DNA of 64,000 nt from assembly GCF_018595685.2 (NCBI RefSeq), contig NZ_CP092334.1, forward strand, positions 1,454,001 to 1,518,000, read 5' to 3'. Each line of letters begins with the position of its first letter. Position 1 is the stretch's first letter. A program made the position numbers and the translations under genes. This DNA comes from Flavihumibacter rivuli. GTDB lineage: Bacteria > Bacteroidota > Bacteroidia > Chitinophagales > Chitinophagaceae. Positions 20,826-52,569 of this stretch are shown here, in pieces. The notes below the pieces were generated by a model that saw only the letters and a list, made by a program, of their open reading frames with translations, was not told where the DNA came from and made no database searches.

Positions 20826-21074
20826 GAAAAAAAACCAAAAAAGTTTAGCAAAGTCCTGAAATAGTTTTGGAAAGCCTCACTATTACCTCAATCCTGCCCA
20901 TAAAAACTGTCCGATTGGTAAAGTTAAGCTATTTGCCCATCAGCCCTCCCGCCTTCATTTCCGGGAACCTGGCCCACCGGGAATCCCGCAGGAAATCCCA
21001 AATTATTCATTAACAATTACTTAATTTCATGTACAGGCCCCTATGCTGCATTTTTAAGGCAAAATGGGGTGAAA

Positions 21075-48092: not shown

Positions 48093-48422
48093 ATGGCTAC
48101 CATTGCTGCTATTGACCCAGCTGTTCTGCGTCAATGGATGGAACAGAAACTGGATATTGATACCATTCGCGAATCATTGGCATCCTCAGGGCTTGATGAA
48201 AGCGCCATAGAAGAACACATCAAGGCCTTTAAAAAAGCCCGGAATTCCCGTCGCCAATTCATCGGATTCATTTTATTGTCGGTTGGCGGATTCCTTGGCT
48301 TCATCAGCACGGTCTTTTCCCTGGTCAATCCCATACCGGAGATCTTCAATCTGGTTTTGTACGGGCTCACTTCCATTGCACTGATCATAATTTGTGCGGG
48401 ATTGTATTACATTTTTGAATAA
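48093..48422 (+). CDS. Small membrane protein, function unknown
   Basis: 109 residues. The N-terminal half is helical and charged (LRQWMEQKLDIDTIRESLAS ... EEHIKAFKKARNSRRQ); the C-terminal half has two hydrophobic segments (FIGFILLSVGGFLGFISTVF and LVLYGLTSIALIIICAGLYY). I recognise no family. It would be an inner-membrane protein with a cytosolic head. The gene ends 20 bases before the first copy of the hairpin-repeat array. Confidence 0.75.
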   Translation: MATIAAIDPAVLRQWMEQKLDIDTIRESLASSGLDESAIEEHIKAFKKARNSRRQFIGFILLSVGGFLGFISTVFSLVNPIPEIFNLVLYGLTSIALIIICAGLYYIFE

Positions 48423-48441
48423 GCGTTAACCGAAAACATTT

Positions 48442-49048
48442 CCATCGGGTCCCCTTCGGGAGGCCCTGATGGAGTGAGAGGGTATTGGCGTCGTTCATTG
48501 TAGCCATGCAATTATATGCTGCGCCGCTGTTGCGTGTTATCACCAACAGCCCCTAAACATATACAATCAACAATGTTAGCTGATAAGGTGAATTATCTAA
48601 CCTCATCAGGGTCTCCCGAAGGGGGCCCTTAACCCCAGCGGGGTCTCCCGAAGGGGACCCCGATGTATAAAAGGTGAAATATGTATGCATCCAACAGTTA
48701 ACCTAACCTTCCAACTAACCGTTGGTCATAAGACACAACGGGGGCGATAGGGAGGTTATTAAATCGTCTCTACTAATAGGGGTTTTCTTCTAAAGTCATC
48801 GATGAATTTCTCTCCTACTATTCATCAGGGTCCCCTTCGGGAGACCCTGCTGGGGTGAAGATATAGGTACCATCTAGCCTCTTCGGGAGACCCTGATGGG
48901 GTGAAGATATAGGCGCCATGTAGCCCTTTCGGGAGACCCTGCTGGGGTGAGAAAATATTATCTCCTCAGCGGGGTCTCTCGAAGAGGACCCCGATGGAAA
49001 AAGAATTCGGAGCTATTCATCAGGGTCCTTTTCAGGAGGCCCTGATGG
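48442..49048. repeat. Array of eight imperfect-palindrome hairpin repeats (about 31 bp each)
   Basis: Eight related hairpins lie in the gene-free stretch 48423-49069 at 48442-48472, 48604-48630, 48633-48665, 48823-48857, 48871-48905, 48917-48950, 48965-48997 and 49018-49048. The unit is CATCAGGGTCCCC-TTC-GGGAGACCCTGATG or its complement. Four copies have the CTTCGG or TTTCGG loop on the plus strand, one has TTTTCA, and three are inverted with CGAAG loops. Copies 3 and 7 differ by paired changes that keep the stem. Copies 5 and 6 have a decayed left arm. No gene or ORF of note lies between them. Confidence 0.85.
48838..48949 (+). repeat. 46-bp tandem repeat inside the hairpin array
   Basis: The stretch starting CGGGAGACCCTG recurs exactly 46 bases apart at 48838, 48884 and 48930 (the last copy partial). 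Two full units share GGGGTGAAGATATAGG and differ mainly around GGTACCATCTAG versus GGCGCCATGTAG. It looks like a recent local duplication of one hairpin with its flank. Confidence 0.8.
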
Positions 49049-49069
49049 ATGAGAAAGGGGAAATGCAAA

Positions 49070-50803
49070 CTATAACTGTACCACCAGGGCTTCATAGGGC
49101 CTGAGGTTCACCCATGAGTTTTGTTTCAGGCTTAAATTAGTGCTATTGTAATTAGACAGGATGATCCTGTAGTTACTTAAATCAATCCCTGCATTGGCCT
49201 GTGTATTCTCTTTGCTGAAATTCAACAATACCAGATATCGCTTCCCCTCCCATTCCCGCAGGTAGGCATAGACGTTAGGATTGTCCTTATCCAGCAACCT
49301 GTAGCTTCCATAAACCATGGCGGGATGGGTTTTGCGCATGGCGGTGAGCTTCCGGAAAAAATTCAACGTACTATTAGGATCCTTCTCCTGGGCGGCGGCA
49401 TTGATGGTGGCGGCGTTGGCATTAACCTTGATCCATGGCGTTCCACTGGAGAACCCGGCATTCTTCGAGGCATCCCACTGGAAGGGCGTACGGCCATTGT
49501 CCCTGCTTTCAAACGCAATCCGCTTAAGGTAAGCAGCCAGGTCGCCGCCTGTTTGCTGTAAGCGCTTGTACTCGTTCAGGGTCTGGATATCCCTGTATTC
49601 CTCAATACGGGTGAAACCGGCATTCGTCATAGCCAGTTCATCGCCATTGTAATAGTAAGGTGTACCGCGCATGGTCATGAGGAAGGTGCTCAGCATCTTG
49701 GAAGAAAGGTCCCGGTACTTGGGGTCATCATTCCCGAAGCGGCTCACCAACCGGGCCTGGTCATGGTTAGCCAGGAAGATCGACAACCACCCACGTTCCG
49801 CAAAGGCGCTATCCCAGCGACTGAATACTTCCTTGAAATGCTGCAGGCTATAGCCCTCCATTCTGGCAATATCCACCCCTTCAAAGGCATAGGCCATATG
49901 CAGTTCCTTCCTCCGGGCGTCCACCAGGTTATGGGCGTCCTCAAAGGAATTACCCGCCCCCTCTGCCACCGACATCACATCATATTTGCTCAACACCTCC
50001 TTATACATTTCCTGCAGGTAACCATGGAGGTTACCCTGCATGGCATAATATTTCACGAATTGCTTTTCATAGCCTTTAGGGAATTCCGGCCAGGTGGTGT
50101 CCTTCGCAGCGAACTGGAAGGCATCGAGCCGGAACCCATCAATCCCCTTATCCCCCCAGAACTTCATGATATCATATACTTCCTGACGCAGTTTGGGATT
50201 CTCCCAGTTCAGGTCGGGCTGCTTACGTGAGAAGTAGTGCAGGTAATAAGAATTGGTCAGCGAATCATACATCCAGGCGTCATGGTTTACATCGAACAGG
50301 CTGTAACGGTAAGGGGGTTTACCATCCTCCGCATTCCACCAATGGTAATAGTTGCGAAAGGGATTTGTGCGGGAACTCTTCGCCTGTTTGAACCATTCAT
50401 GCTCATCACTGCTATGGTTCACCACGATATCCATCACCAGCCTGATGCCGCGATCATGCAATCCCTTAAGCAGCGCATCGAAATCGGCCATCGTCCCAAA
50501 TTCCTTCATGATATTGCGGTAATCACTCACATCATAGCCATTATCATCGTTAGGGGAAGTATAGATCGGGTTCAGCCAAACCGCATCCACCCCAAGACTC
50601 TTGATATAATCCAGGCGGGAAATGATGCCTTTCAGGTCACCGATCCCATCACCATCACTGTCCTGGAAGCTACGAGGATATATCTGGTAAACGATGGCTT
50701 CCTTCCACCATTTTTTAGTGGATACTTCTGTTGGCTGGGCATAAGAAAGGTGAAAAGGCAACAGGCAGCTGAGCAGACCGGCAATACGGAACAGTTGTTT
50801 CAT
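49070..50803 (-). CDS. Exported GH13 alpha-glucosidase (oligo-1,6-glucosidase type)
   Basis: 577 residues with a signal peptide (LLSCLLPFHLSYAQ), so probably periplasmic. The GH13 barrel is typical: KEAIVYQIYPRSFQDSDGDG, LDYIKSLGVDAVWLNPIYTS, DIVVNHSSDEHEWF, GFRLDAFQF (nucleophile Asp), VAEGAGNS (acid/base Glu) and FLANHDQARLVSRF (transition-state Asp). The C-terminal small beta domain is present. It should split terminal alpha-1,4 or alpha-1,6 glucosyl links of maltose- or isomaltose-like sugars. No SusCD or transporter is near. The last hairpin repeat lies 22 bases beyond its stop. Confidence 0.94.
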   Translation of the reverse strand: MKQLFRIAGLLSCLLPFHLSYAQPTEVSTKKWWKEAIVYQIYPRSFQDSDGDGIGDLKGIISRLDYIKSLGVDAVWLNPIYTSPNDDNGYDVSDYRNIMKEFGTMADFDALLKGLHDRGIRLVMDIVVNHSSDEHEWFKQAKSSRTNPFRNYYHWWNAEDGKPPYRYSLFDVNHDAWMYDSLTNSYYLHYFSRKQPDLNWENPKLRQEVYDIMKFWGDKGIDGFRLDAFQFAAKDTTWPEFPKGYEKQFVKYYAMQGNLHGYLQEMYKEVLSKYDVMSVAEGAGNSFEDAHNLVDARRKELHMAYAFEGVDIARMEGYSLQHFKEVFSRWDSAFAERGWLSIFLANHDQARLVSRFGNDDPKYRDLSSKMLSTFLMTMRGTPYYYNGDELAMTNAGFTRIEEYRDIQTLNEYKRLQQTGGDLAAYLKRIAFESRDNGRTPFQWDASKNAGFSSGTPWIKVNANAATINAAAQEKDPNSTLNFFRKLTAMRKTHPAMVYGSYRLLDKDNPNVYAYLREWEGKRYLVLLNFSKENTQANAGIDLSNYRIILSNYNSTNLSLKQNSWVNLRPYEALVVQL

Positions 50804-51105: not shown

Positions 51106-52569
51106 TTACAAAACCCGACCGGCTTTTATAACTTCCCTGTAAAAATCAGCACTAAGCTTGGGGATCCGTTGTAAGGTTTTATAGTCCACATAGTACAGCC
51201 CAAAACGTGTAGCGTAGCCGGAAACCCATTCAAAATTGTCCATCAGGCTCCAATGGAAATATCCCTTAACCGGAATGCCTTCCTCGATAGCCTGCTGCAT
51301 ATTTAACAGGTAATTGCGTAAAAACATGACCCGGTCTGTATCGCATATTCTTCCTTCCTTATCCTGCTCGTCTGCCGCGCCACAACCATTTTCTGTTATG
51401 TAGATTTCCTTAACGCCCCATATTTCCTTCATGTGCCTGGGTCCCCAATACAGGGCCTCCGGACCTACATAGTGCCATGAAGAAGCCATTTTAGGATGAA
51501 CCTTAGTAAATGGTAGCAATTCGTATCCAGGTTTAGCATCCGATGCCATCACATAATGATTCGGCATGTAGACATTTATCCCTGCAAAATCAACAGGCGT
51601 ACCAATTGCTTTCATTTCGGCCTCGGTAAACCGTGGGGCATCCTTTCCTTCCTTTTCCAGAAACTCATTGGTGTATTGGCCTTCAAGCATAACGGTCAGG
51701 TAACCGGCATTCAATTGCCTTGTCGCTTCCTGTGCCGCCTTGATATGCTCTGGTGTTGCAATGGCCGGTACTGCATTGACCATGTTTTCAGCGGGACCTG
51801 CTTTAACACCCGGTGCTGCGGCCTTAATGGCTTGCATGGCCAGTCCATGCGCCAAAACCACATGGTGCCGCACCTGGTTCAGGTCTTTGCGTGAGAGTTT
51901 AAGGCCGGGAGCCAGCAATCCGGTTCCATGCCCCCATTCAACAAAGGTGAACATCTCATTCAGGGTGAAAAAATGCTTAACCCGATCTCCCAACTGACTG
52001 GCAACATAGCCTGCATAAGCTGCAAAATGTTCCGCAATTGATCTGGATTGCCATCCTTTCTCCCGCGCCTGCAATGCCTGGGGAAGGTCCCAATGATACA
52101 GGGTAGCGAAAGGTTGAATACCGTTTTCCAATAAGGTATCCACCAGGCGTTTGTAGAAATCTATCCCTTTCTGGTTGGGGCTACCCTTTCCTTCAGGAAA
52201 GATACGCGGCCAACTAATGGAAAAACGATAAGCATTTGTTCCGAGGGCCTTCATCAAACCCACATCTTCCCGATAGCGGTGGTACATATCTACCGCAACA
52301 TCGGCATTCCAATTGTTCTTGATCTTGCCCGGTGTGTGCGAAAAAATATCCCAGATGGACTTGCCCCTTCCATCCTCATTGACCGCTCCTTCTACCTGGA
52401 ATGCGGCAGTTGCTGTACCCCAGTAGAATTCTCCAGGAAATGGCCGGCTGGGTTGAGGATCTGCTTCTTTAGGGGATGCTGCAATTGCTTCTGCTGCCTT
52501 TACCAGGCCAGACAATCCCAGCCCGGTGGCGCCCAATGCTTTGAGAAGTTTTCTCCTGTTTGATTCCAT
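51106..52569 (-). CDS. Tat-exported GH1 beta-glucosidase
   Basis: 487 residues. The twin-arginine leader is MESNRRKLLKALGATGLGLS (residues 1-20, RRKLLK core), so the folded enzyme is exported. The GH1 barrel starts FYWGTATAAFQVEGAVNEDG. The acid/base Glu lies in TLNEMFTF, where the common NEP is NEM, and the nucleophile in YITENGCG. It should hydrolyse beta-glucosides or similar. It shares its strand with the GH13 gene but is 302 bases away, so they are probably separate units. Confidence 0.94.
   Translation of the reverse strand: MESNRRKLLKALGATGLGLSGLVKAAEAIAASPKEADPQPSRPFPGEFYWGTATAAFQVEGAVNEDGRGKSIWDIFSHTPGKIKNNWNADVAVDMYHRYREDVGLMKALGTNAYRFSISWPRIFPEGKGSPNQKGIDFYKRLVDTLLENGIQPFATLYHWDLPQALQAREKGWQSRSIAEHFAAYAGYVASQLGDRVKHFFTLNEMFTFVEWGHGTGLLAPGLKLSRKDLNQVRHHVVLAHGLAMQAIKAAAPGVKAGPAENMVNAVPAIATPEHIKAAQEATRQLNAGYLTVMLEGQYTNEFLEKEGKDAPRFTEAEMKAIGTPVDFAGINVYMPNHYVMASDAKPGYELLPFTKVHPKMASSWHYVGPEALYWGPRHMKEIWGVKEIYITENGCGAADEQDKEGRICDTDRVMFLRNYLLNMQQAIEEGIPVKGYFHWSLMDNFEWVSGYATRFGLYYVDYKTLQRIPKLSADFYREVIKAGRVL

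Follow-up and report, generated by a model that had tools for sequence, protein, structure and literature searches.

Systems that couple REP, BIME or REPIN repeats to a RAYT gene (TnpA_REP) are best known from Proteobacteria, going by excerpts of four reports (PMC2817692, PMC8049555, PMC3733652, PMC3116915). In these best-known populations the hairpin foot bears GTAG as a guide, and REP repeats are believed to spread through genomes by means of a transposase that acts on single-stranded DNA. A second point of comparison is TnpA_Y1 subclass 2.6, found mostly in Bacteroidetes. As described, this subclass has NH[LIV]H, WQ, and YIH[QN]NP motifs and is flanked by atypical secondary structures without GT[AG]G, while the motif YIHYNP is assigned to subclasses 2.2 and 2.8 (PMC6006769). 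Non-autonomous repeats of Bacteroidota also include the MITEs of Porphyromonas and Cardinium, one of them with an internal minisatellite (excerpts of PMC4596501 and PMC9769881). The element analyzed here was not reported in any of the matches listed for the open-licence literature on MITEs/palindromes and RAYT/REPIN, Bacteroidetes, and Chitinophagaceae, and Chitinophaga combined with “repetitive extragenic palindromic” returned no open-licence paper.

We analyzed a window of 64,000 nucleotides of Flavihumibacter rivuli (contig NZ_CP092334.1, positions 1,454,001 to 1,518,000), in which a mosaic array of hairpins lies within an intergenic gap of 647 bp (48423..49069, no strand assigned) between two converging ORFs. 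These stand tail to tail, a 109-aa ORF ending at 48422 (+ strand) and a 577-aa ORF ending at 49070 (- strand), and the ORFs touching the gap measure 53 aa at most. Two ORFs beside the array, at 49070-50803 and 51106-52569, presumably encode an alpha-amylase-like (GH13) and a beta-glucosidase-like (GH1) protein. The array probably represents a single location within a REP/BIME (REPIN-like) population, whose hairpins A and B would be moved by a Y1 HUH transposase (RAYT). It fits a BIME/REPIN-like mosaic because A and B are associated with a RAYT gene and share their design with hairpins at related RAYT loci. The link of A/B to RAYT is the strongest part of this explanation, and the way in which a further hairpin, E, moves is the weakest. 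What this Bacteroidota genome shows is a dense, high-copy, non-random REP/BIME-type mosaic of two hairpin types.

The initial annotation had listed eight imperfect palindromes in a gene-free stretch, and all eight are present as copies of hairpin E, with cores between 48447 and 49042, three on the + strand and five on the - strand. Copy 1 (48447..48466, -) is followed by hairpin B (48527..48549, -), a REP of the RAYT-associated A/B pair that was absent from the earlier list, and by copy 2 (48609..48628, +). Next comes a composite unit of the form E+/A+/E- (48629..48860, +), which is repeated around the genome; copy 3 (48641..48660, +) marks its left end, copy 4 (48828..48847, -) its right end, and between them lies hairpin A (48719..48741, +), 23 nt long with a one-nucleotide bulge. 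Three 46-bp tandem copies (48832..48969, +) span copies 5 (48874..48893, -) and 6 (48920..48939, -), which have largely lost one arm and show 5 and 4 mismatches, respectively, to the 20-mer consensus. The array closes with copy 7 (48972..48991, +), which has a CTC/GAG stem variant, and copy 8 (49023..49042, -), with 4 mismatches to that consensus. Within the window, E is confined to the array, as had been claimed: a 22-mer pattern at up to 6 mismatches has no match elsewhere. A 20-mer pattern has one 5-mismatch match outside the array, at 20988, and a 19-mer pattern has several scattered matches at 5 to 6 mismatches, at the level of chance.

Both hairpins are abundant in the genome as a whole. 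We found 323 matches to E and, at up to 3 mismatches, 111 to A, and the repeats exceed chance, since reversed-pattern controls gave 0 in every own-genome pattern search, including these two. Counts of 340 and 395 for E include palindromes counted twice; therefore, we use 323 genome-wide and 299 in the fetched DNA. Places of A are given for the first 100 of the 111 matches, and 22 listed places of E fall outside the 52 fetched stretches. The copies are mainly extragenic: no A place (0 of 119, list not deduplicated) and only 9 of the 299 E places lie in ORFs of at least 200 aa, 5 of those 9 having 5 mismatches, whereas such ORFs make up 67% of the fetched DNA. E is thus a high-copy, extragenic palindrome of 20 to 40 bp, that is, a REP in the broad sense. 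With its compensatory stem changes and its copies in both orientations, it bears out the suggestion that the repeat is a REP-like family. REP/BIME/REPIN systems likewise consist of short palindromes that lie outside genes, number in the hundreds, and form inverted pairs, mosaics, and tandem arrays.

On one strand, the core of E reads GGGTC-T-CCC-GNA-GGG-GACCC, with outer arms CAKCR and YGATG. Its statistics derive from 299 distinct places with at most 5 mismatches in 52 own-genome stretches (379,751 bases including the window); 31 of these places have 5 mismatches, and some of them are surely chance matches. The bulged T is kept in 291 places and the loop is GNA in 276 (GAA in 132, GCA in 88, GGA in 35, and GTA in 21). 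Three stem positions exchange one pair for another across the 299 places, namely A-T (157) for G-C (98), C-G (258) for T-A (22), and C-G (261) for T-A (25). The second of these is the change between CCC/GGG in copy 3 and CTC/GAG in copy 7 that had been noted at the outset, which is real and recurs among other members of the family. Double changes at positions 7/13 and 8/12 agree with a pairing in which the T is bulged and GNA forms a triloop, and not with a UUCG/CGNA tetraloop; folding of single sequences favors the tetraloop register. Among 133 distinct 30-mers, double changes number 95, above all 300 shuffles (mean 61, maximum 76), and the paired fraction of 0.765 barely exceeds the shuffled values (0.748, maximum 0.763), the shuffles not keeping the relatedness of the copies. 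A register with T-G wobble pairing was rejected: its paired fraction (0.829) is below that of shuffles (0.841), and the double changes fit the bulged-T/GNA register.

These features bear on the possibility that E is a structured RNA with UUCG hairpins that acts as a terminator, attenuator, or mRNA stabilizer at gene 3' ends. The window array does lie between two converging gene ends, one strand of the window copies carries C(TTCG)G, and divergent gaps hold the fewest copies (17 of 97 for A and 46 of 269 for E, placed between called genes, the E list not deduplicated). However, copies occur between genes in all four relative orientations, and the loop described in the initial annotation stands only in part: TTCG fits 7 of the 8 window copies, but across the family the middle base of the GNA loop is free, so UUCG holds for one loop type only and is not a conserved feature of E. 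Moreover, 48380-49120 contains no terminator-like site, against 1.0 in shuffles, and Rfam returned only chance matches to miRNAs and sRNAs, far below their gathering scores. Given the GNA loop, its free middle base, and the absence of a terminator-like site, the UUCG RNA reading originally proposed is unsupported, and we regard an RNA role of this kind as unlikely. GNA triloops closed by C-G are exceptionally stable in DNA, and the presence in E of such a triloop and a bulged T, rather than a UUCG tetraloop, favors a role on single-stranded DNA.

A search of the genome with the array recovered, besides the hairpins, a conserved segment some 230 bp long. The recurring unit is accordingly larger than had been annotated: a composite, 232 bp in the window, in which E is joined by another type of hairpin (A/B) that has a recognizable RAYT partner. 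It consists of E+, A 80 bp further on, and E- about 105 bp beyond that. Hairpin A (CCGTTGGTCATAAGACACAACGG) is unrelated to E. B differs from A by compensatory changes at 2/22 (C-G to T-A) and 9/14 (C-G to G-C) and has the same one-nucleotide bulge; the fetched own-genome DNA holds 109 copies of A and 29 of B. The proportion of paired cells in A/B is 0.92 (49 distinct sequences), compared with a mean of 0.87 and a maximum of 0.90 in shuffles, so that the stem is kept by compensatory change in A/B as it is in E. The order E+ A+ E- accounts for 55 of the 109 A copies, the others standing in other orders, beside B, or alone, and the distance from E to A is 78 to 81 in 65 of 67 adjacent pairs. Since the 52 stretches were picked for holding A or composite copies, these order statistics describe that set. 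Inverted REP pairs and modular arrays, the hallmarks of BIMEs and REPINs, are present. Unlike described REP/BIME/REPIN populations, this one combines two unrelated hairpin families at a recurring spacing and separates its inverted E copies by a spacer of about 186 bp. RNAalifold on the composite unit gave no convincing additional structure. Separately, four units (L036:10212-10458, L036:9772-10020, L037:8829-9074, and L038:2497-2737) have GGCGCGGCC as the left arm of E and an intact right arm, and a tandem array of 98-bp units with eight E hairpins adjoins composite units at L036:2571-3260.

The hairpin feet also set this population apart. Those of E are CAKC and GATG, without the unpaired tag of the GTAG or CGTC REP superfamilies, and A likewise has neither tag at its 5' foot. 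A GTAG does come after A in the composite consensus, where it stands 3' of the hairpin and is read on the complementary strand; next to A in the array around the RAYT gene described below, it is absent.

Near-identical composite copies are dispersed in the genome. Those at 448 kb and 2.745 Mb, 2.3 Mb apart, share 98.6% identity over 276 bp, and in the fetched stretches 15 matches between different loci reach 93% identity or more across 140 bp or more; some of the dispersal may be recent. Alternatively, the composite could simply be a MITE, belonging to an insertion sequence of the DDE or IS200 type and ending in E hairpins as terminal inverted repeats. MITEs are insertion-sequence derivatives, often with target duplications. 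The near-identical dispersed copies and the position of E as inverted ends of the 232-bp unit agree with such an origin. Yet E and A also occur separately and in many orders. Three dispersed pairs were displayed and two aligned cleanly; their break points lie at or near the hairpin feet but differ, and, unlike in MITEs, no target duplication was seen in these two. In addition, a PF01797 profile search of the genome had no match, leaving no Y1/IS200-type transposase by Pfam. A MITE in the ordinary sense is therefore an improbable description of the composite.

The REP/RAYT explanation, by contrast with a MITE, gains from a gene associated with A and B. A RAYT protein from a congener and the NCBIfam RAYT model (NF047646) both point to the same two genes in this genome, and both score below the NF047646 cut-off. 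One of them (G000:C1:2305222-2305656), about 800 kb from the array, has an E value of 3.7e-21 and a score of 76.9 against the curated cut-off of 80, and the congener protein detects it only at an E value of 0.002. It contains an NHIH motif, one in-frame TGA, which falls just before the Q, and YIHYNP. A search of solved structures with the RAYT piece found no relative. On both sides of the gene, within the array that surrounds it, B- hairpins alternate with A+ hairpins. A REPtron arrangement, that is, a RAYT gene flanked by the same REP, thus exists for A/B, resembling the RAYT genes that lie among their REPs in known systems, although here the RAYT carries a stop. For E there is no such arrangement: it is lacking in the array around this gene and, at up to 3 mismatches, in L099-L142.

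Relatives of this RAYT suggest a common hairpin design. The part after the stop has matches in 70 of 119 genomes including its own, the best other at 65% identity; of three intact relatives, two pass the curated cut-off of 80 (81.1 and 82.1) and the third scores 70. Hairpins of the form G[TC]nnGT[GC]-loop-complement occur at 20 of the 29 related RAYT loci kept from this search, all in other genomes; the count is descriptive, since the design was drawn up after viewing the same loci. The RAYT-flanking hairpins of relatives vary by compensatory change. Such hairpins are absent from 19 window pieces and from 29 other loci, the latter comprising 26 congener loci (some overlapping) and 3 own loci, most of which hold another RAYT type. 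The stricter GTTGGT form is found at 9 of 30 loci, including our own, and not once in 121 kb of other loci. A GGC/GCC tag lies within 7 nt of 42 of 63 design hairpins (random expectation, 17%). The remaining 9 of the 29 related loci have no design hairpin, two of them (L126 and L131) with similar stems outside the pattern, and A and B of this genome differ from the design of the relatives by their extra bulged base. Because A and B flank the RAYT gene, related RAYT loci share the hairpin design, and the controls have none, A and B fit as the putative cognate REPs of this RAYT.

As in subclass 2.6, at least as excerpted from PMC6006769, this system has an NHIH and a YIHxNP motif, flanking hairpins without a 5' GT[AG]G, and copies elsewhere in the genome. 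In contrast to what that excerpt describes, a sequence rule is visible here (a G[TC]nnGT[GC] stem, often with the GGC/GCC tag), the gene is interrupted, its Y motif is YIHYNP, and the A/B stems have a one-nucleotide bulge. Four relatives (L120, L130, L134, and L142) agree with it in both the HUH and the Y motif; the residue after W, read in three relatives, gives WH in L120, WQ in L122, and WY in L128. Membership of the own RAYT and its relatives in subclass 2.6 is therefore no more than plausible, since the relatives fit the motifs in part and YIHYNP is listed for other subclasses. The congener RAYT loci that we read are flanked by different palindromes. In four congeners (L094, L095, L096, and L097) these are CACCCGTCGGGTG and related sequences, and the neighbors of RAYT there are, we assume, gamma-glutamyltranspeptidase-like and M14 carboxypeptidase-like genes.

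Taken as a mechanism, the REP/RAYT explanation would run as follows. On single-stranded DNA, hairpins A and B would be recognized by the Y1 HUH transposase, which would cut and copy the hairpin pair into new intergenic sites; the arrangement around the RAYT gene suggests that this protein moved A/B. Because A lies between two oppositely oriented copies of E, the 232-bp composite could fold into one long hairpin and be dispersed as a whole, and local arrays would then expand via tandem duplication. E would travel with A or use another RAYT; its mover may be a lost RAYT, the own RAYT acting on the composite, or hitchhiking. As the own RAYT gene has one in-frame stop, the population may be orphaned in the sequenced genome, which would make it an example of REPs left without their transposase. 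A bolder and tentative version, which we consider possible rather than probable, joins two claims: E is an independent hairpin family, with over 300 matches in one species, that lacks a transposase of its own and spreads by bracketing A, as a hitchhiker on a RAYT-driven population; and A/B exemplify a REP code, G[TC]nnGT[GC] plus GGC/GCC, that is widespread in Bacteroidota and is recognized by subclass-2.6-like RAYTs in place of GTAG. The guide code of this atypical RAYT group becomes directly testable with purified protein.

Outside this genome, the repeats are rare. The initial annotation had proposed a search for the unit in the complete genome and in related Chitinophagaceae genomes; the unit is multicopy in its own genome, but the hairpin is not common to relatives. 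E has one match each in 2 of 393 other genomes of the family, a shorter E pattern has one two-mismatch match each in 2 of 14 congeners and none in the other 12, and 2 of 148 relatives have one match each to A, at three mismatches. Pattern controls outside the own genome are not always 0 (one each in G043 and G106 for A, and also in G008 for E). Neither E nor A occurs as a family in any of the 14 congeners, and the A match in congener G014 has no E hairpin within the 200 bases read. An exact scan for the A core in a genome contig set of 84,980 species, from which own records were possibly left out, gave two matches, in Atribacteria and Betaproteobacteria MAGs; we took both as chance because the 250 surrounding bases contain no E hairpin. 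Viral contigs, plasmids, and phages have no match to the A core, and no DNA match from a congener spans the window gap, so no empty site could be compared. Given these restricted matches, the repeat population is a lineage-specific amplification, present in one species among the genomes searched. The idea that E and A are host sites for chromosome architecture or protein binding, amplified because they are useful and not because they are mobile, agrees with the higher conservation of hairpins than of spacers (0.95-0.98 versus 0.79-0.91 in 53 full-length composites, taken from the window and the initial 31 stretches and aligned in one orientation per place), but this distribution and the association of A/B with RAYT make it very unlikely.

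The second RAYT-like gene of this genome (L115:2447-3106, G000:C1:785446-786105) encodes 219 aa with an HFH motif (NF047646 E value, 5.6e-8) and lies upstream of ORFs resembling ribosomal proteins. It is preceded by a palindrome of 42 nt together with an 11-bp tandem array (GTCTCCGACCC). Read by eye, this palindromic array is a different one, and the palindrome has GGGTC/GACCC arms in common with E, possibly by chance.
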